Shown here: positions 42,442 to 63,570 of the stretch, one piece after another | Position numbering within the stretch: position 1 is the stretch's first letter | How the letters are laid out: each line of letters starts with the position of its first letter | Assembly: GCF_900091495.1 (NCBI RefSeq) | Contig: NZ_LT607413.1 | Coordinates: 7,331,001 to 7,395,000 of the forward strand | Length of the DNA stretch: 64,000 bases | Direction: 5' to 3' | DNA from: Micromonospora echinospora | Lineage (GTDB): Bacteria > Actinomycetota > Actinomycetes > Mycobacteriales > Micromonosporaceae | Notes under the pieces: generated by a model | Seen by the model: the letters and a program-made list of their open reading frames with translations, nothing else | What the model was told of the DNA's origin: nothing | Database searches by the model: none | Made by a program: the position numbers and the translations under genes

Positions 42442-43950
42442 TCAAGACTTGCCGCTGGCGGCCAGCTCGTGAAGCGCACTCCGGTCGAGTTTGCCGTTGG
42501 CGGTCCGTGGCAGTTCCGGCATCTGCACGTAGGTGGTGGGCACCATGTAGGCCGGGAGAGCCTGCAGGCACCACTGCAGGAGGTCGGAGTTGTTCTGCTG
42601 TTGGTTGGGCTCGGCCACGTAGTACGCGACGAGGCGGTGCTCTTCCGCGAGCCACGGCGTGACCACGACCGCCGCGTTGAGGACGGCCGGATGCATCGTC
42701 AGACGTTCCTCGACCTCGCCGAGTTCGATCCTGTTTCCGAGCACCTTCACCTGCTTGTCCTCTCGGCCGACATACTCTAGTTGGCCGTCGGGAAGCCGCC
42801 TGACGATATCGCCCGTGCGGTAGAAGCGGCGGTGCCCGTGTTCTGTCTCGCGCCACACGAACCGCTCTTCGGTGAGCGCCTTCTGCCCGAGATATCCCCG
42901 GGCCATTCCCGGAGTCGTGAAGAGAAGCTCGCCTGAATCGTCGCTGGCGAGATTGCCGGCGCCGTCCGTGATCAGCACCTCTGCATCGAAGATCGGACTT
43001 CCCATGGTGACTGTCGACACCGGACCGGTGATCAGGCTCGCCGTGATGTCCTGTACGGCTTCGGTCGGACCGTAGACGTTGAGGATCGGGACAGAACTCT
43101 GGGAGAACCAGTGCTCGACCAAGGAACGGGTCAGCGTCTCACCACCGCTGCGCAGTAGACGCAGCGGTGAGCCTAGTCTGGCAATGGATGCTTCCTCACG
43201 CTGCGTCATGTACTTGATCACGGAAGGCGTCAACCAGAGCACGGTCACACCGTTGTCCCTGATGTACGTGAACAGCGACGACGCGCTGGAGTGCCGGCGC
43301 CCACGCAGGAGGAGCCGTGCTCCAATCACCAGTGGTGCGTAGATCTGACCTATGGAGGCTACGAACGACATCGAGGCGAACTGCAGCAGCACGTCGTCGG
43401 CGGACAGTTTCAGCAGGCGTGCTGTCTTGAGGGCGACGTCGCCAAGTGCGCCCTGCTCGATCTCCACCCCCTTGGGACTTCCGCTGGAACCTGAGGTGTA
43501 GAGGATGTAGGCACGGTCGGACGCGGACGGCGTCGATGCCGGATCCGTCTGCGCCGCATCGGCCAGTTCGGCGGACGTCCAGTCCAGCACGACAGGGTTG
43601 ACGTCACAGCGGGCGAGCCGACTCTCGCCGTCGGCTTGGGTCAGCAGACACGCCGCATCCGCGTCGCGGAGCATAAGATCCAACCGCTCCGCGGGATAGT
43701 CGGGGTCCAGTGGCAGGCAAACGCCGCCCGCTTTCAACACCGCGAGCACCGAGACGATCGCATCGATCCCCCGGTCCAGGTACACCCCGACAACGACGTC
43801 GGGTCCGACACCGCGACTCGACAGCACGTGTGCCACACGATTGGCTCGCTCATTGAGTACCTGATAGGAAATTGACTCGGATTCGAAGGTGAGGGCGATG
43901 CGGTCGGGATAGCGGCGGGCTATGCGCTCAAACTGTTCCTTGACTGTCAC
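42442..43950 (-). CDS. Stand-alone NRPS adenylation domain
   Basis: A 502-residue amino-acid-adenylation enzyme without carrier or condensation domain. Core motifs are A3 YILYTSGSSGSPKGVE near 152, A5 NVYGPTEAVQD near 300, A7 RFYRTGDIVRRL near 388, A8 VKVLGNRIELGEVEERL near 412, and A10 ELPRTANGKLDRSAL near the end. The segment equivalent to FDASVW of GrsA reads FVASIG, so the aspartate that holds the alpha-amino group is replaced. GTG at 43950 follows AAGGAGCAGCAGCC. It is cut off from the other biosynthetic genes by IS debris and the kinase gene. Probable partner: the carrier-thioesterase protein at 60728. Confidence 0.9.
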   Translation of the reverse strand: MTVKEQFERIARRYPDRIALTFESESISYQVLNERANRVAHVLSSRGVGPDVVVGVYLDRGIDAIVSVLAVLKAGGVCLPLDPDYPAERLDLMLRDADAACLLTQADGESRLARCDVNPVVLDWTSAELADAAQTDPASTPSASDRAYILYTSGSSGSPKGVEIEQGALGDVALKTARLLKLSADDVLLQFASMSFVASIGQIYAPLVIGARLLLRGRRHSSASSLFTYIRDNGVTVLWLTPSVIKYMTQREEASIARLGSPLRLLRSGGETLTRSLVEHWFSQSSVPILNVYGPTEAVQDITASLITGPVSTVTMGSPIFDAEVLITDGAGNLASDDSGELLFTTPGMARGYLGQKALTEERFVWRETEHGHRRFYRTGDIVRRLPDGQLEYVGREDKQVKVLGNRIELGEVEERLTMHPAVLNAAVVVTPWLAEEHRLVAYYVAEPNQQQNNSDLLQWCLQALPAYMVPTTYVQMPELPRTANGKLDRSALHELAASGKS

Positions 43951-44189
43951 GGCTGCTGCTCCTTGGTCGTGGACTCTTCTCGTTATTGCTGGGGCTGATG
44001 CGCTTAACCGGCAAGGTGTGCCTGCTACGCCAGCCGGCAAGCTGATGAGCCCGCGCTCTCGGGCAGTTTTCAACTGGTGATCACGTTGCAATCTGCGGTT
44101 CACGTATTCGTTGTGGACTCTTTGTGGAGTCTTATGCCGAGTCCTGAGTGGAGCGTTTAGAATCGTAGCGGAGTTCGATGTGACGCGCA
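43951..44189. other. Leader and upstream region of adenylation gene
   Basis: No gene on either strand. AT content is higher than average, consistent with a promoter for the adenylation gene. No TACA-type SARP repeats are seen here, unlike the other two minus-strand promoters. Confidence 0.4.
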
Positions 44190-44320
44190 ATATCGTGAAC
44201 GGCCAGCCGGTCGGGTCGGACAGGCCGGTGATCTCGCAGACTTCGGCATGCTCGCGCAGGTCACCGCCGCTGTTCACGGCGGGAACCCAACCGGTCGCGG
44301 CCCGGATCGCCGCACGCACG
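44190..44320 (-). pseudogene. IS1380-like transposase fragment
   Basis: The minus strand encodes TGWVPAVNSGGDLREHAEVC, then EITGLSDPTGWP, resembling a conserved stretch of IS1380-family transposases. Flanking sequence has no continuation in frame. Family attribution from memory of the motif; moderate certainty. Confidence 0.5.
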
Positions 44321-44460
44321 CCCACGTGATCGCGGCACCGACGGAGAACCAGATGTCCAGTTACTGGTCGCGCAAGGACCGGATGTGGGCGGGGATCCCC
44401 TGGCTGGAACCCGCCGAATCGGCGCGGAGCAGGATCGAGGTGCCGTCGGCGCGGGATCCT

Positions 44461-44743
44461 CATGAAGTGGATCTGTGGAAGGACCACTTCGAGGGCGACC
44501 ACAAGCAGCTCGAACATCAGCTCAGACCGATGCCTGGGCCACGTTCCGACCGTTCCGTCCAGACAATCATCACCGGCCGTGCCTTCGTGCAGAACCTCCG
44601 CCGCGAACACTACGAACTCGCCACCGATGTCCCGCCCGCCCTGCGGGTGGCCGCCGCGTTCACCGAACTGGCACGAGCGATCTGAGAGTGCCCGCCGCCG
44701 GGGCTCGGCGCGTCCACCGCCCCGACAACCGACAGCGCCCTCG
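44461..44743 (+). pseudogene. DDE transposase C-terminal fragment, left copy of inverted repeat
   Basis: HKQLEHQLRPMPGPRSDRS and RAFVQNLRREHYELATDVPP, then LRVAAAFTELARAI, is the C-terminal end of a DDE transposase (IS6-like by pattern). From 44569 to 44743 the DNA is nearly identical, in inverse orientation, to 45918-46098. The two copies bracket the kinase gene. Confidence 0.7.
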
Positions 44744-44757
44744 CAACCTGCTTCGAT

Positions 44758-45714
44758 TCAGCCCGACGTGTTTATCAGGGCGGTGACATAGGCGTCCAGA
44801 CGCTCCTCCAGGGTACGCGTCGTCAGGTCTGTCCTGCCTGCCTCGCGCCATGGCTGCGCCATCGCCTGCACCTCTTCTGAGCAGGCCAGCGCGTCCCGCA
44901 CCTGCCAGTACAGCCGCTCGCTCGCGGCTGCGGCCAGCACCCCGCCTGCCTCCTCGTACGCCTGCGTGAACCGCAGACCCCACGCCGGGCCGTGCAAGAG
45001 CGCGAAATTGGTGCAGCAGTGCGCCACATCGAGATCCGCCGGCCCCCAGCAGGCTCCTGCCCAGTCGACGACGCCGGTGATCCGCACACCTGCCGACCCC
45101 GGTTCGTCGAACAGCACGTTGCCGGGTTGGAAGTCCCGGTGCAGGAATCGCCCTTCATAGCGCGGCGCGGGCTTGCGGATCACGTCGATCGCTGCGGCCC
45201 AAGCCCCCGCGTCGGCGCCCTTCGGAGTCACGGCGGTGTCGGCGGTCGACAACGTCGAGTACTTTCGGGGCCGCTTGGTGGGTCGTACCGCGTGGATCGC
45301 CACGAGCTGACGGGCCAGCAGGAGAACGCGCGCCTCCACGCCCTCATCGTGGATGATCGTCCGGCCTGCCAGATGTGTCATCAGCAGCGATGGAAACTCG
45401 CAATGCGTGGCGGTCGGATCGACCGCGACCAGTCCAGGAGCCGGCACGCTGGTCTGCGTGAGCAGAGAAAGGGCATCGGCCTCCCTGTTCAGCCAGTCCT
45501 CGGCGTGTCCCACATAGAACGGGTCGACGAAGCTCCGCAGCACCAGGACGCGGGTGTTGCCGTCCGGCCTGCCGATGGTCAGCCTTCGCATTTGCGCAGT
45601 GATGCCGCCGTGCAGCATCTCGGTCTCGACGATTCGCTCGCCGACCTCCAAGTGCTGGCTCACCCAAGCCAGTGTCAACGGTATGACAGCCGTCGCTTCA
45701 TCGTGGTTGGTCAC
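44758..45714 (-). CDS. Aminoglycoside phosphotransferase (APH)-family kinase
   Basis: A 318-residue small-molecule kinase. Brenner motif FLHRDFQPGNVLFDE near residue 195 contains the catalytic Asp and metal Asn. VVDWAGACWGPADLDVAH near 218 is the equivalent of the DFG-like metal site. The GTG start at 45714 lies 5' of TNHDEATAV. Kinases of this class confer self-resistance by phosphorylating antibiotics, or act as biosynthetic kinases. It sits between inverted transposase fragments, so it may be an acquired resistance cassette or a cluster gene around which IS copies landed. Substrate not inferable. Confidence 0.85.
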   Translation of the reverse strand: MTNHDEATAVIPLTLAWVSQHLEVGERIVETEMLHGGITAQMRRLTIGRPDGNTRVLVLRSFVDPFYVGHAEDWLNREADALSLLTQTSVPAPGLVAVDPTATHCEFPSLLMTHLAGRTIIHDEGVEARVLLLARQLVAIHAVRPTKRPRKYSTLSTADTAVTPKGADAGAWAAAIDVIRKPAPRYEGRFLHRDFQPGNVLFDEPGSAGVRITGVVDWAGACWGPADLDVAHCCTNFALLHGPAWGLRFTQAYEEAGGVLAAAASERLYWQVRDALACSEEVQAMAQPWREAGRTDLTTRTLEERLDAYVTALINTSG

Positions 45715-45917
45715 TGTGACATCTCATCATCCGGAGGGCGGCATGCGCACGTGATTTTAAACTCGTTGGCCGAGCCACCTGGCGCCTGGCCTGCCGGACC
45801 ACCGGTGTGAACAACGGTCCACCTGACTTGATAAAAATATCGTCGTCGCTGGATTGGCTGCGACGTGCGAAGTCATCCGCCGTTGCGCTGACGGGAAACT
45901 GCCAGTTGGTGGTGACG

Positions 45918-46098: not shown

Positions 46099-46206
46099 GT
46101 CGGCGCTGGCCACCACCGCGGTGGCGCGGCGATTCTCCTGCGGGCGGCGCTCATCGACCCGCGACCGAGGGGGAGCCGCCGGGGACACGCCGGCGGCCAG
46201 CCAGCC

Positions 46207-47724
46207 TCAGGCGGCGATCGTGCGTAGCGCGGCCCGGGCCGCGCGGACCGCGGTGACGGTGCCGGTCAGCGTCGAGTTCCCGACGACGGCGGTCGGTACG
46301 ACGCCGTTCCCGGCGAGGTAGAGGTTGTCGAACGCCCAGACCTGGCCGTACGGATCGCACACGCTGGTGCCGTCATCGGCGGTTCCCATCCGTACGGTGC
46401 CAGTCAGGTGCAGTGATGACCCCGGTGGCAGCAGCGCTGACTCGGTGCCGGGGTCGAAGTCACCAAAGCGCTCGGCGATCGCGCGCAGCTCGCTGCGGCC
46501 GGCACCGATGAGATTCAAGTCGGCGTCGGTGTAGCCGAACTCGATCTCGAAGCTCGGCATCCCGGTGACGTCGGTCGTGTCCTCGGAGAAGCGGATGCCG
46601 TTCTCCGGCCGTGTCTCGACGGGGCTGAAGAGCGAGAGCCCGACGGCGTGGGCCAGCGGGAGGCCCTCCGGGTCCACATAGGTGGTGTTCATGATCTGCC
46701 CGTGGAAGGGCTGGGCCGGGCCGTTCTGCGGCAGCCACAGCGAGTCGGTGTTGCGCTCGTCGCCGGCCGCGCGAGGCAGGCCGGCCCGGTCGAGTCCGAA
46801 GCGGTCGAGATCGAGGAGGACGCGGCCGGTGAGGAAGGCGTGCTCGTTGAGGTAACGGCCCAGCGCCGGGGGACGGATGCCGGAGGCGAACAGGAGCTGA
46901 GGGGTGCGGAACGCGTCAGCACACACCACGGTGGCGGTGGCCTCGATGACACGCCGGTCGCCGGTTTCGACATCGAGGACCACGGCACCGCGTACGCGGC
47001 GCCCGTCGTGGTCGAGGGCGACCGCGAGCGTTCGGGGTAGCAGGGTGAAACGGCTGTCGCCACCGGACCCGAGCGGCGGGAAGATCCGGCTCGGTCCGGT
47101 GCGCAGCAGCCGGCCGCCCGGCTCTCGGGTGACGGCCATCGGCATGAGTTGCGGGGCGCGGTCGGCCGGCCCGACGCCGCGGTAGCGCCGCCGTAGTTCG
47201 GCGAGCACGACCTCGCCGGGCAGGGTCGGTCCGATGGCGGCGCTGGTGACACCGAGAGCGCGCCGCGCGGTGTTCAGGTCGCGCTGCCAGAGCCCGGGGT
47301 CACCGTGGTCGAACACCTCCGTGCCCGCGGGCCAAGGGGTCACCGCCGTCCAGTGGGCGCCCATCCCGCCGACGTTCCACGCCGCCGCGGCGGCCGGCAT
47401 CGCCGAGGTGTCGTTGCCCACCGCGGACAGGAGGTGCAGGCCGGCCTTCAGCCGGTACGCGTCGGGCGACTGGGACGGTGGTGGCTCCACCCCGGTGTAG
47501 AAGCTCTGGATCCCGCTGGCGAGGGGGGAGTTGTACTGCGCCCATATCTGTGGATCGGCCGTGTCGTGCACGTGCAGGCCGGGCATCGCACCGATCGGCG
47601 GTCCGCCGTCGACCATCACGATGCTCGTGGCGGTCGACGCCTCGCGGACGAGCCGGGCAACGACGCTGCCCATGATGCCGCTGCCGATGATTAGCAGGTC
47701 GGTGGTCGAGTCGGGTGCGGTCAC
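46207..47724 (-). CDS. GMC-type FAD oxidoreductase
   Basis: A 505-residue flavoenzyme. The FAD-binding motif LLIIGSGIMGSVVARLV is at residues 10-26. AAWNVGGMGAHWTAVTPWP near 114 is the second GMC signature. The C-terminal HLTGTVRMGTADDGTSVCDP and NLYLAGNGVVPTAVVGNST segments carry the catalytic His region. It is similar in outline to pyranose 2-oxidase-like and sugar or alcohol oxidases. GTG at 47724 with GAGGAG upstream lies 10 bp behind the methyltransferase stop, so the two are co-transcribed. It probably oxidises an alcohol or sugar carbon of the cluster-2 product. Confidence 0.87.
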   Translation of the reverse strand: MTAPDSTTDLLIIGSGIMGSVVARLVREASTATSIVMVDGGPPIGAMPGLHVHDTADPQIWAQYNSPLASGIQSFYTGVEPPPSQSPDAYRLKAGLHLLSAVGNDTSAMPAAAAAWNVGGMGAHWTAVTPWPAGTEVFDHGDPGLWQRDLNTARRALGVTSAAIGPTLPGEVVLAELRRRYRGVGPADRAPQLMPMAVTREPGGRLLRTGPSRIFPPLGSGGDSRFTLLPRTLAVALDHDGRRVRGAVVLDVETGDRRVIEATATVVCADAFRTPQLLFASGIRPPALGRYLNEHAFLTGRVLLDLDRFGLDRAGLPRAAGDERNTDSLWLPQNGPAQPFHGQIMNTTYVDPEGLPLAHAVGLSLFSPVETRPENGIRFSEDTTDVTGMPSFEIEFGYTDADLNLIGAGRSELRAIAERFGDFDPGTESALLPPGSSLHLTGTVRMGTADDGTSVCDPYGQVWAFDNLYLAGNGVVPTAVVGNSTLTGTVTAVRAARAALRTIAA

Positions 47725-47734
47725 CGCGGACTCC

Positions 47735-48847
47735 TCACTGCTGTGGTGGAAGGAGTTCAGGGAATGCCGGGCCCCGTAGCAGATAGCCCAGTTCGATACC
47801 GGTCGAGTCGACCGCAGGGTCGGTCGTCGTGGTGGCCGCGACGGTCAGCCCGGCCCGGTCGAACAGCGCCTCCCAGAACTCGCGTCGCTCCAGCCGCTGA
47901 TTGGTGAAGTAGTGGATGAGGAAGTACGGATTCCAGTAATTGCGAGCGGTGCCGTGGCGCATCAAGGTGGGGTTGCAAATCTCGTCCGCCACCTCGATGA
48001 CCACCACGTTGATGCGCGGGAACCGGCCGACGATGCCGGTCAGCAGCGACTGCACGGCACCCTCGCCGCCCTGCGCCAGGATCTCGTGCAGGACACAGCC
48101 GAGCACGATGACGTCCGGGTTGCAGTCCGGCGGCGGATCGTCGAGGAACTCGGCCGTACCGCTGTTGATAAGGTGGATCCGGTCGACCAGGCTGGCCTCT
48201 GCGACCAACTGACGGCCCTCCTGGTAGCCGAGAGGGTCAGGTTCCACCCCCCAGGCGATGCGAATCTGCGGCAGGTGGGTGCAGAAGTTGGCCAGGTGGA
48301 GGGCATTGCCGCAGTCCAGGTCCAGCATCTCGCGTGCCTCCACCCCGCCCTGCCGGAGCAGCTCGCGAGTCATCGGCAAGCCGTCGTACCGGCTGATCTC
48401 GCACTTGCCGATCCTCACCTCGCGGCCGTTTCGGCTGCAGTGCCCGCCACGTGCCTCCAGCGATCGGCCGATCTGCTGCAACGTGGTCGCGTAGCCGCCG
48501 ACGAACATCGTGTACCAGGCGCGAAACTCGGCGTACCGATAGGCCTTGTCGGTGAGCGCGACTGTGTTGCCGCTCCAGGTCACGATGCCCTCGTTGGCCA
48601 GGTAGCGGAGGAAACCGGTGAGCCGCAGTGGTTCGAGCAGGAGCGCGTCGACGAGGTTCGCGACCTCGGTAGCACCGTGCCGGACAAGCCGATCGTAGAT
48701 GCCGCTGGCGAAGAAATGGAACAGGGAGGCGGCGAGGAAGTGCTCGGCGATCGGTCGAATTCCGTCGATCATCCGTTGCTCGAAGGCGGAGTCGACGAGC
48801 GCGCCCTGCGCGGTGCCGATGCAGATCGGCGGGGTCGGGACGGTCAT
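47735..48847 (-). CDS. SAM-dependent methyltransferase, keto-acid C-methyltransferase-like
   Basis: A 370-residue class I methyltransferase with an N-terminal helical domain (MIDGIRPIAEHFLAASLFHF). SAM motif I is unusual: MLDLDCGNALHLANFCTHL near residue 178, with CG in place of GxGxG. The overall plan recalls enzymes that C-methylate alpha-keto acids, including those acting on 2-ketoarginine. In a cluster that also has an arginine-type hydroxylase and an amidinotransferase, that is an attractive but unproven role. ATG at 48847 follows GAGGAGA. Second gene of the operon 49761-46207. Confidence 0.78.
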   Translation of the reverse strand: MTVPTPPICIGTAQGALVDSAFEQRMIDGIRPIAEHFLAASLFHFFASGIYDRLVRHGATEVANLVDALLLEPLRLTGFLRYLANEGIVTWSGNTVALTDKAYRYAEFRAWYTMFVGGYATTLQQIGRSLEARGGHCSRNGREVRIGKCEISRYDGLPMTRELLRQGGVEAREMLDLDCGNALHLANFCTHLPQIRIAWGVEPDPLGYQEGRQLVAEASLVDRIHLINSGTAEFLDDPPPDCNPDVIVLGCVLHEILAQGGEGAVQSLLTGIVGRFPRINVVVIEVADEICNPTLMRHGTARNYWNPYFLIHYFTNQRLERREFWEALFDRAGLTVAATTTTDPAVDSTGIELGYLLRGPAFPELLPPQQ

Positions 48848-48891: not shown

Positions 48892-49761
48892 TCAGACGGT
48901 CACCGGCCGCAGGTGACCGGCGCCGGATTCGTTCCCCAGCAGCCACTTCACCGCGGCGTCGAGCGGTGAGGCGGCCCGGGGCGGAAACGAGCCGAGCATG
49001 TTGTCGCACTGCCGTGCCACCAGGCCGGGGAAGCCGGAGCGGCGCACCATGCGGTGGTTGTCGAGAACGGTAAGGTCGCCGACTGCGGCGCCGACCGTCC
49101 GGCACGCGGCACCGGCCCTGTCCCGCAGATGCTCAGCCAGCTCGGCCGGCATCGGCCGCCCGTCGGCCAGGCGGAGGCTGCCCGGCTCAGACTCCAGCAC
49201 CGCCCGCAGCGCGACCTGGCCGATGGTGTCGGCGCCGGCGGGCGTGCGGCACACCATCGGCGTCACGAACGAGATGAACAGCGAGCCGTCAGCTCGGAAC
49301 TCGTACTGAATCCCCCGCAGCCGGGCGAGGCGCTGCTCGATCGCCGCCCGCCCGTGGCCGCGCAGTGCCCGGCGGCATTGCTCGGGCGACCGCAGCCGGT
49401 CGAAGCGGATGGCGTTGCCACGGGCGAAGGTCGCCCAGCGCCCCGTCAAGCCGGCGAGCAATTGCACGCCGTCGATCACTTGCTCAGGATCGGCGGTACG
49501 GCCAGGGGCGTGGCGCAGCGACCAGATCGCGTCCGGCTGATAGGGGTGGAACTGGTCGAGTTGTGCGTCGGGAAGATCGGCACAATGACCGAATTGCTCG
49601 ATGAACTCGCCGAACTCCGTCTCGCCGGGTGCGAATCCGCGAAATATGAGGTGGCCGTACCGGCGGAGCAGAGTGACCGTCTGGCGCGGGCCGCAATCGG
49701 CCAGCGTTTCGCCCTTCAGAGGTTCGACGTACGGCACACCTCTGCGGACGACTATCCTCAT
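48892..49761 (-). CDS. TauD/TfdA-like protein lacking the usual first iron ligands
   Basis: A 289-residue protein of the TauD superfamily outline. RRYGHLIFRGFAPGETEFGE near residue 33, IDGVQLLAGLTGRWATFARG near 96, and the distal VLDNHRMVRRSGFPG near 238 fit the fold. The segment where HxD/E should precede PDxIW reads DAQLDQFHPYQPDAIW, with no HxD or HxE. Iron binding is therefore doubtful or rearranged. It heads the operon with methyltransferase and GMC genes; ATG at 49761 has GGGGAGTG upstream. A SARP-like repeat array lies 48 bp before the start. Confidence 0.7.
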   Translation of the reverse strand: MRIVVRRGVPYVEPLKGETLADCGPRQTVTLLRRYGHLIFRGFAPGETEFGEFIEQFGHCADLPDAQLDQFHPYQPDAIWSLRHAPGRTADPEQVIDGVQLLAGLTGRWATFARGNAIRFDRLRSPEQCRRALRGHGRAAIEQRLARLRGIQYEFRADGSLFISFVTPMVCRTPAGADTIGQVALRAVLESEPGSLRLADGRPMPAELAEHLRDRAGAACRTVGAAVGDLTVLDNHRMVRRSGFPGLVARQCDNMLGSFPPRAASPLDAAVKWLLGNESGAGHLRPVTV

Positions 49762-51658: not shown

Positions 51659-51708
51659 GAGAATCCCTAACGGTTGGTCCAACACGACCGGACAGGTACG
51701 GCAGCCGG

Positions 51709-53202: not shown

Positions 53203-53252
53203 GTGCTTCCTCACAATCTGATGTCGGACCTGCCTGGCCGATTCGCCCAGCT

Positions 53253-54546: not shown

Positions 54547-55506
54547 TCACAATTTCCCCGTTGCCCACAGCAGTGCTGACGCGGCGGCGGACGCCTTGTG
54601 GTATGCCTGCCTCGGCACGAGCGACGTGGCGCTGGCCCCGTCCAGGACGTCGGAGGTCACCTCTTGGCCCCGGACCGCGGGCAGATCGTGCATGAACACT
54701 GCTTCGGTCGAGCCGGAGAAGCGCCTCATCGTGTCCTTGGTGACGGCGAACGGGGCGAATTGGGAAAGCCATTCCGGGTCCTGGCGTGCCTCGCTCATCG
54801 AATGCCACCGTGCGGTGTAGACAGCGTCCACCGGATCCGGCGCGTCCGGCAACGTGGCATGCTGGCGAACAACGTCTTCACCCCGTACGGCATTCAGTGA
54901 ATCGATTTCTCCCGCGGAAAATCCCAAGCCGTCCGGGCTGTACACGTCGAGGCTCTGGAACGGCATCTTGCAGGAGAGCAACGCCAGCGCCCGAGCCGTG
55001 TTGTTCACCTCACCCAGATATGCCAGGCGAAGATTCTCCACCTTGCCGAAATGCTCGCGCAGCGCACAGAGATCTGCGATCGCCTGAGTCGGATGCTCCT
55101 CGTAGGTAAGGGCATTGATCGTTGCCGGCACATGGACGGCCAGGTCAGCCAATTCGTGCTGCGGACCGTTGGTGCGGGCGACGACGACGTCCAGGTGGTT
55201 CGCCAGAATGGCACCGGTATCGATCCACGTCTCACCGGTCGAGATTTGGATGTCGTCCTTGCTCAGATGCAGCATGTCGCAGCCGAGGGTGAGCCCGGCG
55301 CCCCAGAACGACAATCTGGTCCGGGTCGACGGGGCGGTGAAGAGCAGGCCTAACCGCGTTCCGGCCAGCCTGCCCGCGAAATTCTGCGGCGTCTGTCCGT
55401 ATCGAAATGCGGTGTCGCTGATCTCCGAGACGTCTTCCGTGCTGAGGTCCGCCAAGCTCAACATTGCTCTGCGGTTCGGATGTCTAGCAATCACTGAAAC
55501 CACCAT
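54547..55506 (-). CDS. Ornithine-carbamoyltransferase-like enzyme
   Basis: A 319-residue aspartate/ornithine carbamoyltransferase-fold protein. FTAPSTRTRLSFWGAG near residue 57 is the carbamoyl-phosphate site. YEEHPTQAIADLCAL near 140 is the second signature. At the amino-acid site HCLP of true ornithine enzymes is replaced by MHDLPAVRGQEV, and the SMG loop reads ARWHSMSEARQ. The altered residues suggest an amine substrate other than ornithine, for example diaminobutyrate. The start is uncertain: TTG at 55527 overlaps the upstream stop, ATG at 55506 was chosen, ATG at 55467 is possible. It lies between amidinotransferase and EctB-like genes. Confidence 0.85.
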   Translation of the reverse strand: MVVSVIARHPNRRAMLSLADLSTEDVSEISDTAFRYGQTPQNFAGRLAGTRLGLLFTAPSTRTRLSFWGAGLTLGCDMLHLSKDDIQISTGETWIDTGAILANHLDVVVARTNGPQHELADLAVHVPATINALTYEEHPTQAIADLCALREHFGKVENLRLAYLGEVNNTARALALLSCKMPFQSLDVYSPDGLGFSAGEIDSLNAVRGEDVVRQHATLPDAPDPVDAVYTARWHSMSEARQDPEWLSQFAPFAVTKDTMRRFSGSTEAVFMHDLPAVRGQEVTSDVLDGASATSLVPRQAYHKASAAASALLWATGKL

Positions 55507-55523
55507 CTCAACTGTTCTTCGGG

Positions 55524-56660
55524 TCAATCCAGATAGTTCTCGGGCCCGCCGTCGCGTACCGTGTCCAACGTGACGCAGTGGAAGCCGCCGCCGAGCACCC
55601 GGGAATGACGCAAGCGGCGCGGCACGACCGTGATTCCCTTGGCTTCCAGAAGACGTATCAGGTTCGTCTGGTTACGATCGACAACGGCCATGTCCGGGCT
55701 GACCATCAGGAGGTTCATCCCCACCCACGGTGTGCTCAGCGTGCGAGGGAGCAGCGGTGCCACCGGCTCCTCGATCGGCGGGCACCAGATCACGTCCCAG
55801 CCGCGCAGCACCTCCGGAACGGTGTCCGGCCGGACGCGCGCGGGGTTGAGCAGAACAAGGCCCGGGCGCAGGAAGCAGATCGTGCTGTCGATGTGCGTCC
55901 CCTGGTAGAGGCCGCGCAACGGGTGCACGCGGATATCGCCGAGCAGTTGCAGGGCCGATTGCAGCCAGCGCAGGCCGATCTCGTTGCCGCTGCGCGACAC
56001 CTGGTAGAAGACGTCACGTCCGAGCCGGACGACATTGGCCGCCTCGAACGCCGGCTCGGCCTCGCCGAGCACCGGGGCGCCCTTCGCGTCCGTGAGGTAC
56101 AGCTCGTCACGCAACTGGGGCCGGGGGGCGCCCAGCCAATGCGCACCACGCAACAGGTAGTCCTGGAAGAGGGGCCGCAAGTTGGACAGCTCGTGGTAGC
56201 GGGACCGCGACGGGCTGGGCGCTTCGATGATGGTTGACCCGATGACCAGCGCGAGGTCGCGCGGGCAGTACGAATGACGCCCCGGGCTGCGCCAGCCCGG
56301 GCCGCCGACTTCCTCATCGGGGTCGGCCGCCGGCGGCTGGTGCACGACGATCCCCATGTCGCGGAGGGTCGTCACCAGGTCGGCGAGATCCTCATTGCTT
56401 TCCTCGATGACCTGGTCCGGGAAGCGCCCGCCCACCCGTTCCCGTTCGGCGGGCGAGAGCTCGGGATAGTCGTTGAGCCATGCCGAGACATCGGTCTGCG
56501 GCGGAACCCCCGCGTGAGTGGCGTCTCCGACGACGACCTCACGCAGCGTGGTGAACTCATCCCAGGAGTTCACCACAGGCAGCCGATGCTCCGGCGATCG
56601 CGATGCTGCTGGTTCGGCGATGCGGTCGGCTGTGGACTGCTCGCCTGACAAAATTGCCAT
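55524..56660 (-). CDS. Glycine/arginine-type amidinotransferase
   Basis: A 378-residue enzyme of the L-arginine:glycine/lysine/inosamine amidinotransferase family. PVVNSWDEFTTLREVVVGDA near residue 28 is the family opening, PRDLALVIGSTIIEAP near 132 and GTHIDSTICFLRPGLVLLNP near 256 (catalytic His and Asp region). HSRVLGGGFHCVTLDTVRD near the end contains the nucleophilic Cys. It moves an amidino group from arginine to an amine, giving a guanidine. ATG at 56660 with AGGAG 9 bases upstream. Second gene of the operon, followed with overlap by the carbamoyltransferase-like gene. Confidence 0.92.
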   Translation of the reverse strand: MAILSGEQSTADRIAEPAASRSPEHRLPVVNSWDEFTTLREVVVGDATHAGVPPQTDVSAWLNDYPELSPAERERVGGRFPDQVIEESNEDLADLVTTLRDMGIVVHQPPAADPDEEVGGPGWRSPGRHSYCPRDLALVIGSTIIEAPSPSRSRYHELSNLRPLFQDYLLRGAHWLGAPRPQLRDELYLTDAKGAPVLGEAEPAFEAANVVRLGRDVFYQVSRSGNEIGLRWLQSALQLLGDIRVHPLRGLYQGTHIDSTICFLRPGLVLLNPARVRPDTVPEVLRGWDVIWCPPIEEPVAPLLPRTLSTPWVGMNLLMVSPDMAVVDRNQTNLIRLLEAKGITVVPRRLRHSRVLGGGFHCVTLDTVRDGGPENYLD

Positions 56661-56739: not shown

Positions 56740-57717
56740 TCAGGCCGGTATCCGCTGACCCCAACGGCGGAAGGTCAAAGCGGATCCGCAGATCATGGTC
56801 CGCATCAGCCAGCGGTCCGTACCGTCGAAACGGGCGGTGAACGGCGTGCGGGCGTGAACGACCCGCTTGTTGTCGAACAGCAACAGGTCGCCCTGTTCCA
56901 TCACGTGCGAGATGGCGACCTCGTCCAGACCGATGCCCAGCTGGCGAAGCGCTTCTGCCGCGTCTTCGTCGGCCGCGTCGATTGGCTCGAGGTGATGCGT
57001 GTCGTAGGCGATCTCCGGTGCCGACTCCGACCCGGAGATGATGGCGAGAGGGCGCATCGGCGTGTCGCCGGGCAGCACGTGCGCGGGATCCGGGCGCACA
57101 TGAAAGCGCGGCTCCCGCAGCGTCGCCATCAGGTCCGGTGCAAGCTGGACGTCCTTCACCTGGGCGTACATGGACGCCCCGGAGGGATCGCCCCGGAGGC
57201 AGAGCAGGCCGGCGTAGTCGCATCGATCGTCACGGAAGCTGTCCTCGCAGTGCCAGTCGAGCATCCCGGTGCTGCTCTGGCTGGTCTGGGTGAACTCCAT
57301 CTTGCGCACCGGGACCATGTTCTGAACGATCCGGCCGTCGTAGAGGCTCGCGTAGTTGAACGGCTCCCCAAGCATGACCGTCACGCTGGTCAGCAGCAGA
57401 GCGGCACCTTGCGCCTCACCGACAGGCGGCATCCACGGGGCCGTCGCGGTGGCGGGGAGCGTCACCCCCTCAGGCAGAAGTCCGCGCAGGAGCACGACGT
57501 CGCCGTCCGGTGCGTAGCGCCGGTACTCGATGACCTGACGGCGCAGGCCGGACGGCAGGAGGGGGGTGACCTCCAGTGCCAGATCGACGAATTCGTCCGG
57601 CGTGAACGCGGCCAGGTCGCGGTTGTCGATCACTTTCTCGATCGAGTCCCAAAGGTCTTTCGCCTCGTGCGGCTGCATTCGGTAGCTCGGTGTCGGTGGT
57701 TTCGTAACCGAATCCAC
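56740..57717 (-). CDS. VioC-like Fe(II)/2-oxoglutarate amino-acid beta-hydroxylase
   Basis: A 325-residue clavaminate-synthase-like oxygenase. GMLDWHCEDSFRDDRCDYAG near residue 160 contains HxE. LLLFDNKRVVHARTPFTARF near 285 holds the distal His, and DRWLMRTM supplies the 2-oxoglutarate Arg. It matches arginine 3-hydroxylase VioC and relatives segment by segment, including YAGLLCLRGDPSGA. GTG at 57717 has GGAG 5 bases upstream and is preferred; the frame stays open to a GTG at 57795. First gene of the long operon and probably hydroxylates arginine, a guanidino amino acid or diaminobutyrate. Confidence 0.87.
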   Translation of the reverse strand: MDSVTKPPTPSYRMQPHEAKDLWDSIEKVIDNRDLAAFTPDEFVDLALEVTPLLPSGLRRQVIEYRRYAPDGDVVLLRGLLPEGVTLPATATAPWMPPVGEAQGAALLLTSVTVMLGEPFNYASLYDGRIVQNMVPVRKMEFTQTSQSSTGMLDWHCEDSFRDDRCDYAGLLCLRGDPSGASMYAQVKDVQLAPDLMATLREPRFHVRPDPAHVLPGDTPMRPLAIISGSESAPEIAYDTHHLEPIDAADEDAAEALRQLGIGLDEVAISHVMEQGDLLLFDNKRVVHARTPFTARFDGTDRWLMRTMICGSALTFRRWGQRIPA

Positions 57718-57954
57718 TCCTTCTCCATTCTCTCTCGCAACGTTCTGCTCCAGTTTCATGTCCGCGAACACATTCCGGTACTCGCCTGGATCCACCTTCC
57801 GAATTTCGCGGACGGTGTTACTTGAAGCCGTCGTCCGTTCGGTGGTCGGCGTCTGGCTCGCCGCGCTCGCAGTCCGCCGCCATCACGTCAATCCTCGGCG
57901 GCGGACGTCCCGGCTCACCGGCCAACGTCTCGGCTCGATCGTGGCAGCCGTGAG

Positions 57955-58105: not shown

Positions 58106-59974
58106 ATGCGGTTCGACATCCTGGGTCCGTTGCGGGCCGAGTCCACGGCTGGACCAGTGAAAATCTCTGGATCCCGCCGCACTGCGCTGCTCGGGGCACT
58201 GCTCATGCATCCCGGCAGGCTGTTACGCACAGGGGATCTGATCGACGCCGTCTGGTCGGAGCGCCCACCGGCCTCCGCGGTCGACAACATTCGGACGTAC
58301 GTCTCCGAGTTGCGCCACACCTTCCAGCGGCACGGCGGCGGCCGGATGATCATCGGAGTGTCCGGCGGCTACCGCTGTGAGGTGAACACCGACGATCTGG
58401 ACCTGACCGAGTTCCGGCGGCTCGACGAGGAGGGCCGTGAAGCCCTTGCCGTCGGCAACCACACTCAGGCCGGGGACCTCCTCGGCGAGGCGGCCGGATT
58501 GTGGCGCGGCGACCCGCTGGAGGGCATCGAGGTCGGCGCGTGGCTGCACGCGCGCATCGAGAGTCTGACCGAGTTGCGCTGGTCCAACATGCTCGCCTGG
58601 GCGGAGGCCCGTCTCGAGCTGGGCGACTACGAACAGCTGGTGCCGATGCTGACCGAGATGGTCGCCGAGCGCGCCCTCCACGAACGCGTCTGGGAACTGC
58701 TCATGCACAGCATGTACGGATGCGGCCGGACCGCCGACGCGCTGGCCACTTACGGGCGGGCACGGCAGACCTTCATCGATGAACTCGGCATCGAGCCCGG
58801 TCCGGGGCTCCAGAGCCTGCACGCACGCATGCTCGACGGCGACGCGGGCCTGGCGCCCCGGGCTCGTGCGCACTCGGTCGCCGTGCGCAGCGCCGGCCGA
58901 GCGGCGGTGGGTGGCCCCCGGTCCGGCGGGGTGCCGCATCTGCTGCCGCCGCGCCCCCAGCACCTCGTGGGGCGCGCCGACGTGTGGGACAGACTCACCG
59001 AGGTGGCCGCCGATGTCCACCGGCGTCTGGGTGACAGCGCGGAGGCGACGCCGGTCGTGACGATCTCCGGGGCTCCCGGCATCGGAAAGTCCGCGGTGGC
59101 GATCGACGCCGCCCACGAGATGCGACACTTCTTCCCCGACGGCGAGCTCTACGTGGATCTGCAGGCACACAGTGGCCGTCCGCGGTCCGGTTCGGAGGCG
59201 CTCGGCATCCTGCTGGCCGGCTTCGGCGCCTCGAGAGTGAGCGACAATGACGACGAACGGCTCGCGCTCTACCGGCAACTGCTGATCGACCGGCGTCTCC
59301 TCCTTCTCCTCGACAACGCCCTCGACGTCGACCACGTCCGCCCGCTGCTGCCGGTCGCGGGCGCCAGCCTGGTGGTCGTCACCAGCCGGCGCCGGTTGGT
59401 CGAGCTGGACAGCCACTGGCAAACCGACCTGCAGCCGCTCGACCGGCAGGCGGCGTGGCAGATGCTCGCCGACTCCGTCGGGACCGAGCGAATCAGTCAG
59501 GAACCGGAGGCGACGACGCGCATCATCGACGCGTGCGAGGGGGTGCCGCTCGCGTTGCGGGCGGCCGGCGCACGGCTCGCTGCCCATCCGTCGTACCCTA
59601 TCCGCGCTCTCGCCGACCGCCTGACTCACGGCGACGACCTGCTGGGCGAGTTGGCTTTCGGCAGTCTGGACGTGCGGGTCGCACTGCGTGACAGCTATCA
59701 AGCGCTGCCGAGTTCCACGCGCGTCGCCTTCCGCGCGATCGGAGCCCGGGCACCGGCCACCATCACCCCGCGCATCGTGGGCGAATTGCTGGACGTCTCG
59801 ATCCCCACGGCCGACCGGCTGCTCGAACGGCTGTTGCGGGACAACCTGCTTCAGCCGCAGCCGAGCAGTGACGGCGAACCCCGTTACGGGATGTTCGACC
59901 TGGTCCGAGCGTACGCGCGCGAGGAGCGCACCTTTAGCTGTTCGGGATCGGCGAAGCCGGACCTAATTCGATAG
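58106..59974 (+). CDS. AfsR/SARP-family regulator with NB-ARC domain
   Basis: A 622-residue pathway activator. The OmpR-like winged helix occupies residues 1-95 (LLRTGDLIDAVW, AVDNIRTYVSELR), and the BTAD helical domain about 100-245 (DLDLTEFRRLDEEG, IDELGIEPGPGL). An NB-ARC ATPase follows with Walker A ISGAPGIGKSAV at 320-331, LLLLDNALDVDHVRPLLP as Walker B, and GVPLALRAAGARLA as the GxP motif. It ends without TPR repeats. ATG at 58106 follows GGGGGAG. It is the obvious activator for the repeat arrays at 57955 and 49809. Confidence 0.92.
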   Translation: MRFDILGPLRAESTAGPVKISGSRRTALLGALLMHPGRLLRTGDLIDAVWSERPPASAVDNIRTYVSELRHTFQRHGGGRMIIGVSGGYRCEVNTDDLDLTEFRRLDEEGREALAVGNHTQAGDLLGEAAGLWRGDPLEGIEVGAWLHARIESLTELRWSNMLAWAEARLELGDYEQLVPMLTEMVAERALHERVWELLMHSMYGCGRTADALATYGRARQTFIDELGIEPGPGLQSLHARMLDGDAGLAPRARAHSVAVRSAGRAAVGGPRSGGVPHLLPPRPQHLVGRADVWDRLTEVAADVHRRLGDSAEATPVVTISGAPGIGKSAVAIDAAHEMRHFFPDGELYVDLQAHSGRPRSGSEALGILLAGFGASRVSDNDDERLALYRQLLIDRRLLLLLDNALDVDHVRPLLPVAGASLVVVTSRRRLVELDSHWQTDLQPLDRQAAWQMLADSVGTERISQEPEATTRIIDACEGVPLALRAAGARLAAHPSYPIRALADRLTHGDDLLGELAFGSLDVRVALRDSYQALPSSTRVAFRAIGARAPATITPRIVGELLDVSIPTADRLLERLLRDNLLQPQPSSDGEPRYGMFDLVRAYAREERTFSCSGSAKPDLIR

Positions 59975-60727
59975 ATCCGCGGGGCCGGGGGGAAATCATG
60001 CGGACACCGCGATCCAATTCCTTGAGGACGAGCGTGAAGATGGTTCATCGCATCGCTTCGGGCAGTCGCATCGCTTCGGGCAGTCCCCATAAAACTCCGA
60101 CCGACGCGGTACTTTCAATCTCGGGAAAGAGCGGTGTATCGCGAGTAAGGGCGGCCTCCGGTGTCACAGCCGCCCGTCACCGCACCGATCTGCTCCACTC
60201 CGGGATCCCCCGGCGAGACCGCCTTGGAGGAGGACGGCGTGCCTGAGGTCCGGTTCGAAGCAGCCCGGGTGAGCGCCCAGGAGGCCGTCGCCGCGGTCAA
60301 CAGCCAGTGCCTGGTGGCCGACCTGTCGACCATCGAGCCTGACCTTGACGAACGTGGTCCGGACGCTCGACGGCGATTGCGAGGAGGCCAGCGGGATGAC
60401 CACGGAGCTCGCCGTCCGGCACCGCGGGTCATGGCGCAACATGCCGCTGTTCGTCCGGCATTTCTGCATCCGCAGCCGTCAATCGCCAAAGTATCCTCCG
60501 GTGGATCCTGGCTAGGTCTCACGGCGTACGGATTAGCCAACACTGCCTTGACCGAGAAGGTGATGCCCGCCTACAGTGAGACACCCGGCAGCACGTTTCA
60601 CATGACCCAGGGGCCTCGTCAGTGATGTCATTCTCGTCGATGGCGCTTGCTGGGACGACAGGGTCGCGCTTGCCCGATCACTAGGCCTGACGGACGAGCT
60701 GGAACAGCACTAGGGAGCAGCATTCTG
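59975..60727. other. No intact gene; degraded sequence
   Basis: Coding character shifts between frames: EVRFEAARVSAQEAVAAVNS then, in another frame, TTELAVRHRGSWRNMPLFVR, then DVILVDGACWDDRVALARSL ending at a stop near 60711. An imperfect direct repeat GCATCGCTTCGGGCAGTC occurs near 60050-60085. These may be relics of a protein once encoded before the carrier-thioesterase gene. No family identified. Confidence 0.45.
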
Positions 60728-61777
60728 ATGGACTCAAGGCGTCCTCACCGACCACCGCGGGATAACGTGGAACTGGTTGTACGTCGCATCTGGTTGAACG
60801 TGCTCGACATACCTCAACTGTCCATTGACGAGGCATTCTTCGACGTTGGTGGTTCATCGTTTTCGGCCATCCTGGTCCTTGACGCTGTTCATCGTGAGTT
60901 CGGTGTAAGGCTGCCGTTCGAAGCGCTATTCAATGACGCGACGGTCGAGGACATGGCACGGGCTATCCGTGATGGCTACAACGGAACTCCCAAGTCGCTC
61001 ATGGACATACGACCTGGAAGCCGGCTGCCAGTTCTGGTCTGCGTCCACCCTCTGAGCGGGAACCTGGCATGGTACCGCGACTTGATCGACGCGGTCCCCA
61101 AGAGTGTGCCGTGCGTTGGACTCCAAGCCCTCGGACTCGACTCACGCTGTCAGCCGCATCGAGATATCCCAGCAATGGCGGCGCACTATCTTGACGAACT
61201 GACAAGCAAATACGATCCGAGCGAAATCGTTATTGCTGGATACTCTTTCGGGGGGCTGGTCGCGTTCGAGATGGCCTGTCAGATGGAGCAAAGAGCTGCG
61301 CCACTTAGAGGAATGACGATCCTGGATACAAGCGTTCCTGAGCAGTACCACCATCCGGAACCTCCCACTGCCAACTTGCGAGTGCTCGTCAGAATCGTGC
61401 TCGGACTCAAGCTCGACGTGGACGAACTCGCCGCACTACCGGCGGACACGCTACGCGCTACGCTGCTTCGCGCAGCGGAACAGGCTGGCACGTTACCAGC
61501 AGGCTTCGGGCCGGACCGGCTCCAGAGAATGATCGACGTTGTTTACAGCAATTGTGAGGCAACGGCACGTTACGTACTTCCAACCTATGGGCGGTTGGGG
61601 CATCTGGTGACTGTTGCCAGCGCGGAGGGAAGAAGTCATAACACCGACGCATGGCGATCTCATTGCAGCGCGGGACTGGAAGTCTACGACATCGGCACCA
61701 ACCACTCGGACGTGATTTCCGGCAAGCACGCCATCGAAGTGGCAGACGTGCTTTGGAGACTCTGGTGGGAGCAGTGA
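60728..61777 (+). CDS. Carrier protein-thioesterase didomain
   Basis: A 349-residue NRPS terminal piece. The peptidyl carrier domain is at about residues 10-85, with FFDVGGSSFSAIL carrying the phosphopantetheine Ser44. A type I thioesterase follows, with VCVHPLSGNLAWYRDL near 104, IVIAGYSFGGLVAFEM near 168 (nucleophile Ser173) and the catalytic His in GTNHSDVISG near the end. ATG at 60728 follows GGGAG at longer spacing. GC is visibly lower than its neighbours, and a TTA codon occurs at 61493. With the stand-alone adenylation domain it gives the minimal load-and-release machinery of the cluster. Confidence 0.9.
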   Translation: MDSRRPHRPPRDNVELVVRRIWLNVLDIPQLSIDEAFFDVGGSSFSAILVLDAVHREFGVRLPFEALFNDATVEDMARAIRDGYNGTPKSLMDIRPGSRLPVLVCVHPLSGNLAWYRDLIDAVPKSVPCVGLQALGLDSRCQPHRDIPAMAAHYLDELTSKYDPSEIVIAGYSFGGLVAFEMACQMEQRAAPLRGMTILDTSVPEQYHHPEPPTANLRVLVRIVLGLKLDVDELAALPADTLRATLLRAAEQAGTLPAGFGPDRLQRMIDVVYSNCEATARYVLPTYGRLGHLVTVASAEGRSHNTDAWRSHCSAGLEVYDIGTNHSDVISGKHAIEVADVLWRLWWEQ

Positions 61778-61789
61778 TGAGCTTCCCTC

Positions 61790-62130
61790 GGCTTCCCGGA
61801 AGGCCTCCGTTCGAGGTTCCCCGCGACATCTGGTGGATGTCGCGGATCAGCTCACCGAGCGCCTGATCGGCCATCTCACGTGGCGAGACCAGCGACGACC
61901 GGGTAGATCATTACGGAAAGACGTTCTCCCGCGCGAAATGGGCCGCGGCCCGGCGCAGGATCTCGTTCTCCACCTCCATGCGCCACATCTCCTTGCGCAC
62001 CGCCGCGAGCATCGTGCGCGCGTCGATGGTGCGGTTCGCTCCATCGGCCGTGCCAATTTCCACGGTGCGGCTACCGGACTCGGGGTGGACCGTGCTGGTG
62101 GTCGGACGAAAGGCGTGCTCAGTTCCAATG
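61790..62130 (-). pseudogene. IS3-family transposase relic
   Basis: The minus strand encodes MLAAVRKEMWRMEVENEILR, then RAAAHFAREN, the end of an OrfA with leucine-zipper character. FPMIYPVVAGLAT follows in the next frame as the start of an OrfB. A further frame gives ALGELIRDIHQMSRGTSNGG, an OrfB piece. The DDE domain is lost. It separates the carrier-thioesterase gene from the exporter. Confidence 0.7.
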
Positions 62131-62268
62131 ACTTGCCCGCTTTCGGTGCTCCCGGTGCGTCCCGGGCACACCGTGCTGCACCGTGGCCGCGCTCGCCGCA
62201 CTTTGCGTGCGCCTGTTTCGCTGGTCACCGGATTGCGCTTCCGGGCACCGGCCGGTTGACTGGAGTAC

Positions 62269-63570
62269 ATGGTGACTCTCGGAAGACTTGCGGCTATCGC
62301 TGCACAGGTTATTCCCCCAAAGGGCGTTACCCGGTCATTGACCGTACTGACGGTCATAAAATCCTGTGGTTTCGGCATTTTCATGGCTGGCAGTCCATTT
62401 TTCTTCACTCGGGTAGTCGGTCTGGAGCCGGTCGAGGTCGGGCTCGGCATATCCCTCAGCGCCGGCATCTCGCTGCTCACCTCGGTGCCGTTGGGTGTGC
62501 TGATGGACCGGCACGGGACACAACGGCTGTGGATCGGGAGTGCGGCGGTTGAAGCGCTGTTATTCGCGTTGTACCCGTTCGTCCCTGGGCTGGCTGGGTA
62601 CCTGGTCGTGATGGTGGGGCTGTCGGTGGTGAACTCGACCGGCAGGATAGCGATCCAGGTCTACAGCCTGTCAGCGCTCCCGCCAGCTGAGCGGGTGCGC
62701 GCACAGGCATTTCAGCGTTCAGCGTTGAATGTCGGCTTCACCTTGGGCGGCGCGGCGGCCGGGGTCGCGATGGCTTTCGACACCGTCGGGGCCTATCGGG
62801 CCATGGTCTGGAGCACCGCCGCGATGCTGGGCCTGTCTGCCATCTTCTTCGCCCGCCTGCCTGGGCTCGGCGCCACTGCCCGCCGCGCCGCTCCCGGCCA
62901 GGAGCGCGGGAGCACCTTCAGCGTGCTACGTGACCCGCCGGTGCTTTCGGTGAGTGCGCTGACCGGCATCCTGCACGCGAACGCGACGATCCTGATGCTG
63001 ATCCTGCCACTCTGGATAGCCAGCCGCACCGACGCCCCGAAGCCAGTGGTGGCCACCCTGTTCGTGCTGAACACCGTACTGGCGGTCATCTTCCAGGTGT
63101 GGGTTAGCCGGGGCGCGGACACCGCCAGCGGGGCCGCGCAGGCGCTACGGCGCAGTGCCCTGTCGACCGCGCTGGCCTGCCTGCTTTTCGTGGTCACCAT
63201 CTGGACCAAGGATGTGATGACCATACTGGTCCTGGTCGCCGGAACGCTCGTGCTGACCTACGGCGAGTTGACGCATGCGGCTGGATCCTGGGGGGTCGTC
63301 TCGGCGCTGTCAACGCCGGAGCGCCGCGGCGAGTACGTCGGCGCATTTCACCTGGGCGACCGGTTGCAGCGCATGGTCGCCCCGATCGGATTCACCGCGC
63401 TGGCCCTGGAGACCGGGGGCGGCTGGGGCTGGCTGGTGATCGCCGGGGCCTTCGTCCTGGCCGGGTCGCTTGTCGGCCCCGCCGTCGCCTGGGCCGAACG
63501 TCGTATGCCAGCGCCGCCATCGCCGCCACCGGAGCTGTCCGAGAGCGTGCGTGAGAAGCGTGAGAGATGA
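62269..63570 (+). CDS. MFS transporter, 12 TM
   Basis: A 433-residue major facilitator protein. The motif A-like GVLMDRHGTQRLW lies between TM2 and TM3 near residue 75. About twelve hydrophobic helices follow, with a basic central loop at residues 205-225 (ATARRAAPGQERGS). ATG at 62269 is preceded by GGAG. A TTA codon at 62560 suggests developmental control through the rare leucyl-tRNA. Position at the cluster end fits product export or self-resistance; substrate inferred only from context. Confidence 0.9.
   Translation: MVTLGRLAAIAAQVIPPKGVTRSLTVLTVIKSCGFGIFMAGSPFFFTRVVGLEPVEVGLGISLSAGISLLTSVPLGVLMDRHGTQRLWIGSAAVEALLFALYPFVPGLAGYLVVMVGLSVVNSTGRIAIQVYSLSALPPAERVRAQAFQRSALNVGFTLGGAAAGVAMAFDTVGAYRAMVWSTAAMLGLSAIFFARLPGLGATARRAAPGQERGSTFSVLRDPPVLSVSALTGILHANATILMLILPLWIASRTDAPKPVVATLFVLNTVLAVIFQVWVSRGADTASGAAQALRRSALSTALACLLFVVTIWTKDVMTILVLVAGTLVLTYGELTHAAGSWGVVSALSTPERRGEYVGAFHLGDRLQRMVAPIGFTALALETGGGWGWLVIAGAFVLAGSLVGPAVAWAERRMPAPPSPPPELSESVREKRER

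Follow-up and report, generated by a model that had tools for sequence, protein, structure and literature searches.

The 64-kb window analysed here (bases 7,331,001-7,395,000 of the single-contig 7.78 Mb genome of Micromonospora echinospora) carries, between its positions 42,442 and 63,570, a cluster in which genes for a VioC/AsnO-like oxygenase, an amidinotransferase, a relative of ornithine carbamoyltransferase (OTC), the transaminase EctB and a glycosyltransferase lie beside small, discrete parts of a nonribosomal peptide synthetase (NRPS). We see about an even chance that this is a biosynthetic gene cluster for a glycosylated guanidino amino acid, laid out on a streptothricin-like plan with diaminobutyrate taking the place of arginine. 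From 57,795 down to 42,442 the minus strand encodes, in order, the oxygenase, amidinotransferase, OTC-like enzyme, EctB, glycosyltransferase, an O-carbamoyltransferase, a TauD-like protein, a methyltransferase, a GMC oxidase, a kinase and an adenylation (A) domain. The plus strand encodes a SARP regulator, a peptidyl carrier protein-thioesterase didomain (PCP-TE) and an MFS exporter. Gene identities come from Pfam, NCBIfam and PDB searches. These bear out a preliminary description of the locus, which had listed the oxygenase, amidinotransferase, OTC-like enzyme, EctB, glycosyltransferase, O-carbamoyltransferase, methyltransferase, GMC oxidase, A domain and PCP-TE, and they add the APH-family kinase, the weakly TauD-like protein, the SARP regulator and the MFS exporter.

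The first five enzymes form a core that recurs in other actinobacteria. A pattern drawn from 19 aligned oxygenase sequences, that of the window among them, was scanned over a collection of one genome per species for 84,980 species and returned 11 loci (L004-L014). This set is not exhaustive: further close relatives of the oxygenase are known from Lentzea, Nonomuraea, Rhodococcus and Micromonospora, and their neighbourhoods lie outside the locus counts. The core is present in five of the 11 loci (L004-L008: Streptomyces tanashiensis, Actinokineospora diospyrosa, S. cahuitamycinicus, Glycomyces niveus and Pilimelia terevasa), where the oxygenases are 69-77% identical to the window's, and is lacking in the other six (L009-L014). 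It also occurs in G261, a genome of the same genus, directly beside A domain, MFS and PCP-TE genes. The window, L004-L008 and G261 make up seven core loci, in which gene presence was judged by tblastn at E ≤ 1e-8. The oxygenase, amidinotransferase, OTC-like enzyme and glycosyltransferase are each found in all seven, and EctB in five. Core proteins of the six other loci are about 54-87% identical to those of the window; the G261 amidinotransferase, split across two sequence pieces, reaches 68% and 90%. The amidinotransferase and OTC-like genes are adjacent in every core locus; in the window their called frames share 4 bases. Because the core sits together in six other loci, the grouping of these genes is not chance.

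The remaining genes come and go. Close relatives of the O-carbamoyltransferase occur in three of the seven core loci (76-79% identity in L006 and L008), with a 31% relative in L007, and the kinase likewise occurs in three (70-74% identity in L004 and L005). The A domain, PCP-TE and MFS genes are confined to the window and G261, and none of the six other core loci holds a relative of the window's GMC oxidase, ketoarginine-type methyltransferase, TauD-like protein or SARP regulator. Other core loci have extra genes of their own: a KASIII-type enzyme (three loci), a radical S-adenosylmethionine (SAM) protein (three), a sugar epimerase (two) and a different flavin adenine dinucleotide (FAD)/GMC-like protein (two). 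O-carbamoylation, like the methyltransferase, GMC oxidase and NRPS parts, thus varies between loci and stands outside the defining core.

The core is also rare. At E ≤ 1e-80 the OTC-like gene occurs in three of 160 genomes of the genus, counting the window's own and a genome labelled G466, and in two of 397 genomes sampled from the order (the window's own and G261). The glycosyltransferase was found in one of 394 genomes sampled from the class, again the window's own, and in one of 295 sampled from the genus of G765. Window G+C falls from 0.70-0.74 over the first 28 kb to 0.64-0.69 over 28-64 kb, and transposase genes lie at 40,237-40,830 and 41,327-42,388, immediately left of the cluster. Together with the sporadic occurrence, this suggests that the cluster was gained by horizontal transfer.

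EctB (53253..54500, minus strand) passes the specific equivalog model for L-2,4-diaminobutyrate--2-oxoglutarate transaminase (TIGR02407, 582 bits against a cut-off of 552.2). No other EctB-like protein turned up in the genome at E ≤ 1e-40, and the gene is placed in the conserved core; we therefore set aside the idea that it belongs to an ectoine operon. EctA had no match among the cluster genes scanned, and no genome-wide search was made for it; EctC (PF06339) had no match in the genome, but 14 control genomes were equally silent.

The adjacent L-arginine:amine amidinotransferase (55524..56660, minus strand) is of the StrB1/AGAT family and carries the family motifs, with cysteine 362 in FHC and histidine 256 in THID. 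Its best PDB match is the inosamine-phosphate amidinotransferase StrB1 (1bwd, 311.9 bits), against 207 for glycine amidinotransferase and 186 for SxtG. A link to the saxitoxin genes, which also pair an amidinotransferase with an O-carbamoyltransferase, was considered, but SxtG scores well below StrB1. An indication of the acceptor comes from four of the loci without the core (L009-L012), which we regard as a sister type. All four have a related oxygenase (44-50% identical), which was the search bait, and three have an amidinotransferase 60-66% identical to the window's. They further encode a PALP enzyme (four of four), an OCD enzyme (two of four), a YqcI/YcgG protein (four of four), a class I/II aminotransferase and a lantibiotic-dehydratase-like protein that is possibly a peptide aminoacyl-tRNA ligase, a combination that suggests peptide-templated guanidino-diaminopropionate chemistry. 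SbnA/SbnB-type enzymes make 2,3-diaminopropionate (Dap), and we read the PALP and OCD enzymes as such a supply. One paper lists sbnA/B as a Dap subcluster (PMC9248904). Since EctB and L-2,4-diaminobutyrate (Dab) are exchanged for SbnAB and Dap between the two cluster types, the amidino acceptor is, by analogy, probably a diamino acid, and in the window Dab.

The Fe(II)/2-oxoglutarate (2OG) oxygenase (56740..57795, minus strand) belongs to the VioC/AsnO/clavaminate synthase group and retains HxE...H. It had been described as a VioC-like hydroxylase, which stands as a statement of group membership and fails for VioC itself: the protein scores 155.5 bits against the VioC equivalog TIGR03946 (cut-off 418.6), and in the PDB it matches asparagine oxygenase best. 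We aligned nine cluster and sister members (L010 left out) with six VioC-model hits. The HxE motif and distal His are intact in all nine. After the conserved Asp, core oxygenases read THH (seven members; MHH in one), and all six VioC-model hits differ there. Of 119 homologues among the 120 listed, some of them fragments, every one has HxE and 103 match the strict distal pattern DNxRxxH[AG]R. Judged by these residues, the oxygenase looks active, has a pocket of its own and is distinct from VioC.

This bears on viomycin and capreomycin, with which the cluster shares a VioC-group oxygenase. The tuberactinomycin class also features a phosphotransferase and carbamoylation of a diamino acid. Unlike those systems, the window has no multimodular NRPS, and its oxygenase lies far under the VioC cut-off. 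Ten VioC-model hits were obtained at E ≤ 1e-90, three of them above the cut-off, and the ~20 kb around each lacks the amidinotransferase, OTC-like enzyme, EctB, glycosyltransferase and O-carbamoyltransferase in all ten cases (E ≤ 1e-6). On the oxygenase score and these ten loci we rejected the idea of a viomycin relative. A separate stretch of the same genome has a VioC-model hit of 484.9 bits, over the cut-off (G000:C1:4799591-4800601; L034, L048); an A domain and what looks by eye like a P450 gene lie near it.

The OTC-like carbamoyltransferase (54547..55527, minus strand; called from a TTG that may lie too far upstream) departs in sequence from a normal OTC, scoring 183.2 bits where the OTC equivalog cut-off is 280.85. 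Relative to one archaeal OTC, HCLP has become HDLP, and the YTDVW position reads Y[T/A]xRW (YTARW in the window), in all eight members aligned, including one from the genome G466. Among the best 120 of 1818 homologues, HDLP occurs in 114 and Y[T/A]xRW in 115; one has HELP, and five fall outside each motif pattern. The carbamoyl-phosphate motifs STRTR and HPTQ are retained. The host's own ArgF, encoded elsewhere in the genome, reads HCLP. We take the HCLP and YTDVW residues to be ornithine contacts. Because the ornithine side is replaced while STRTR and HPTQ are kept, the enzyme should transfer carbamoyl to an acceptor other than ornithine, in line with the earlier view of it as a modified ornithine-type carbamoyltransferase.

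G466, of the same genus, carries its altered OTC relative in an NRPS cluster (L025-L026, G466:C1:3066000-3105800). Also encoded there are a transaminase resembling EctB, a methyltransferase of the ketoacid type, an AurF-like N-oxygenase and a fusion of an aminotransferase with a carrier domain. The 40 kb examined contained neither an amidinotransferase nor a related oxygenase or glycosyltransferase. This gene set speaks for a Dab-type carbamoyl acceptor in that strain. On a linear Streptomyces plasmid (NZ_CP134610.1, 38420-63289; L051), genes for methylaspartate mutase and NRPS proteins adjoin one whose product is related to the altered OTC at 41%.

The glycosyltransferase (51709..53214, minus strand), 54-67% identical in the six other core loci, represents a rare family whose members share a conserved extension at the C terminus. 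It just exceeds the Pfam Glycos_transf_1 cut-off (28.6 bits; cut-off 26.4), and a sequence search of the PDB at E ≤ 0.001 found no relative. A medium-confidence structural model (mean predicted local distance difference test score, pLDDT, 63.8) matches a lipopolysaccharide glycosyltransferase, trehalose-6-phosphate synthases, SenB and VldE. The predicted fold class is GT-B, and the model speaks to neither donor nor acceptor.

Downstream, the O-carbamoyltransferase (50144..51799, minus strand; start probably 51658) is assigned to the TobZ/NodU family by Pfam, NCBIfam and PDB. The methyltransferase (47735..48847, minus strand) resembles a 2-ketoarginine C-methyltransferase. It falls just under the equivalog TIGR04543 (MrsA, 2-ketoarginine methyltransferase; 392.2 of 425 bits, nearly full-length) and matches the PDB 2-ketoarginine methyltransferase at 304 bits. 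In Pilimelia, a 408-aa protein beside the core (L008:15463-16689) looks by eye like an arginine methyltransferase and has no Pfam or NCBIfam match. The GMC flavo-oxidase (46207..47724, minus strand) falls, by Pfam, NCBIfam and PDB matches, in the group of pyranose oxidases and 6'''-hydroxyparomomycin C oxidase. The weakly TauD-like protein (48892..49761, minus strand; Pfam TauD 25.2 bits, under the cut-off of 27) is an orphan: apart from its own entry, three homologues were found, and its fold prediction has a mean pLDDT of 40.5. Its metal-site region appears altered by eye, and the protein may be an oxygenase that is non-canonical or inactive. The APH-family phosphotransferase (44758..45714, minus strand; Pfam APH 94.6 bits) may, from its sequence family, serve self-resistance or be a sugar kinase. 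An open reading frame (ORF) at 45757-46188, unmatched in Pfam, is unlikely to be a gene.

The NRPS parts are discrete. The A domain ORF (42442..44610, minus strand; Pfam AMP-binding 253 bits, TIGR01733 363 bits) has its domain at about 42442-43950, and the Pfam match begins at residue 227; the upstream part is probably untranslated. It stands without a condensation domain or PCP, and the PCP-TE is encoded separately (60647..61777, plus strand; start probably 60728; DxGG and GxSxG present), as it is in G261, where it is 72% identical and next to the core. No condensation domain was matched among the window cluster genes scanned with Pfam. At the Asp235 position (gramicidin synthetase numbering), the A domains of the window and G261 have Val, and both LgrA domains and the aligned G466 A domain have Asp. 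Asp235 binds the alpha-amino group of the activated amino acid. By the usual A-domain rules, Val at this position would therefore point to an acid that offers no free alpha-amino group where one is normally bound; keto, hydroxy, beta-amino and N-blocked acids are the candidates. The other plus-strand genes encode, by profile matches, a SARP-type activator (BTAD and NB-ARC; 58106..59974) and an MFS exporter (62269..63570), the latter 66% identical to its G261 counterpart.

From the observed gene identities, conserved neighbourhood and altered residues, we infer the substrates, step order and product as follows. EctB would convert aspartate semialdehyde to Dab, and the amidinotransferase would move the amidino group of arginine to an amine of Dab. 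The oxygenase would then hydroxylate amidino-Dab, probably at the beta carbon, and the OTC-like enzyme would carbamoylate an amine or guanidine nitrogen of the hydroxylated guanidino-Dab unit, to which the glycosyltransferase would attach a sugar. These steps correspond to the conserved core. In this strain, the sugar would then be O-carbamoylated and probably oxidised by the GMC enzyme, a methyl group would be added via the keto-acid type methyltransferase, and the A domain and PCP-TE would activate and transfer an acyl unit without a free alpha-amino group. The kinase may confer self-resistance, and the MFS protein would export the product. A hydroxylated, guanidinylated or carbamoylated, glycosylated diamino acid had been proposed before. 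This fits the core and the sister Dap-type clusters, except that O-carbamoylation proves variable and lies outside the core.

So, is this a streptothricin cluster? Streptothricins join amino acid residues to a cyclic guanidine and a carbamoylated aminosugar, and work cited in two papers covers both a guanidino-N-glycosyltransferase and an A domain that stands alone (PMC11702664, PMC10156733). Compared with these published descriptions, the window offers a predicted guanidine-bearing hydroxylated amino acid, discrete NRPS parts including a stand-alone A domain, and a glycosyltransferase with a TobZ-family carbamoyltransferase that may serve a carbamoylated sugar, which in streptothricins is a gulosamine linked to the guanidine. 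It differs in its proposed use of Dab/EctB and an amidinotransferase for the guanidine, not arginine cyclisation, in adding the OTC-like carbamoyltransferase, and in having a kinase, not an acetyltransferase, beside the cluster. In streptothricin biosynthesis a hydroxylase and a pyridoxal phosphate (PLP) cyclase turn arginine into streptolidine. No such VioD/OrfR-like cyclase was found among the window cluster genes scanned, where EctB alone depends on PLP, although the right flank encodes a DegT aminotransferase. Nor was a radical SAM protein found among these genes, or the lysine aminomutase that supplies beta-lysine residues, for which no genome-wide search was made. Because the PLP cyclase and lysine aminomutase are missing from this set, we do not class the cluster as a streptothricin; the best reading is that it is streptothricin-like in outline.

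Among other known systems, the natural products guadinomine and TAN-1057 contain a diamino acid whose guanidine is carbamoylated, and are not known to be glycosylated. Streptomycin-type guanidino aminocyclitols share the amidinotransferase family. Here, in contrast, an EctB-type transaminase and a VioC-group oxygenase adjoin the amidinotransferase, and no cyclitol genes occur among the cluster genes scanned. The saskemycin cluster likewise brings together glycosyl-, carbamoyl-, amino- and amidinotransferases, but its product has a polyagmatine tail and a tetrasaccharide and was discovered via an arginine methyltransferase gene; we rejected it as a match (PMC12637814). No cluster with this gene set and no matching product were found in the open-licence literature searched, in agreement with the preliminary description, which could name no known antibiotic.

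Several findings weigh against a glycosylated guanidino-Dab product. EctB was not found in the sequence examined around L005 and L008. Genes for sugar-nucleotide supply were absent from the cluster genes scanned, with the DegT aminotransferase and a GFO-family oxidoreductase in the right flank. Further points come from the GMC oxidase, which resembles sugar oxidases, and from the different FAD protein of two other core loci, which has a weak GMC C-terminal match; together these imply that some of the genes could act on sugar. The best PDB score of the amidinotransferase is to the streptomycin enzyme, which acts on an aminocyclitol, at 312 bits versus 207 for glycine amidinotransferase. An aminoglycoside-like pathway would draw on the GMC, FAD-protein and amidinotransferase matches, and on the kinase: the GMC enzyme would oxidise a sugar hydroxyl, EctB, as a class III aminotransferase, would aminate it, the StrB1-like enzyme would guanidinylate it and the OTC-like enzyme would make a ureido sugar. 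We consider this unlikely, given that EctB passes its specific model, that close GMC relatives are absent from all six other core loci, four of them with EctB, and that in the sister type related amidinotransferases and oxygenases stand with genes of the diaminopropionate type.

The G466 cluster, with its OTC relative and EctB-like gene and no amidinotransferase within 40 kb, is a further point against a single guanidino-Dab unit, and implies that the carbamoyl and amidino groups may end up on different molecules. There might then be two building blocks, a ureido Dab made by the OTC-like enzyme and a second guanidino acid made by the amidinotransferase and oxygenase, joined by the A domain and PCP-TE. 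The ketoacid-type methyltransferase, AurF-like and NRPS genes of G466 and the plasmid NRPS cluster are consistent with such a scheme. Yet the amidinotransferase and OTC-like genes are adjacent in all seven core loci, and the window cluster yielded no condensation domain match, and we regard two building blocks as similarly improbable. That the OTC-like gene merely recycles toward arginine the ornithine freed by its amidinotransferase neighbour, a release that is general chemistry for such enzymes, is very hard to credit when the acceptor motifs are replaced across the subfamily, the score is so far below the OTC cut-off and the genome has its own ArgF.

The right flank (L030:520-7717, window +63.5 kb) encodes an amino-acid-type ATP-binding cassette (ABC) transporter, a solute-binding protein, the DegT aminotransferase, a sulfotransferase-family protein and a GFO/IDH oxidoreductase. 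We left it out of the cluster because it has no close counterpart in other core loci, the closest being a 31% DegT in G261 and ABC ATPases of at most 41%; an adjoining sugar or uptake operon is possible. On the other side, a 1689-aa ORF with strong coding bias (30760-35829, minus strand) lies just left of the transposase-rich stretch.

If a guanidino-Dab glycoside is indeed made, the core could define a new glycoside class. Its head group would come from Dab, as a hydroxylated N-carbamoyl-guanidine or an alpha-carbamoyl cyclic guanidine. Acyl, sugar and methyl decoration would differ between strains, self-resistance would be antibiotic-like, and an ornithine carbamoyltransferase would have been re-purposed to a guanidino amino acid. 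We put this fuller proposal forward tentatively, as somewhat unlikely in its entirety. Standard cluster callers may undervalue such clusters, in which the NRPS parts are small and variable. Should the guanidino-Dab reading hold, it would point to an uncharacterised family of hydrophilic, cationic glycosides scattered sporadically through actinobacteria and to a carbamoyltransferase with a new acceptor. It would also provide a rule for genome mining, in which EctB/Dab or SbnA/SbnB-type/Dap genes feeding an amidinotransferase and a 2OG oxygenase indicate guanidino amino acids.

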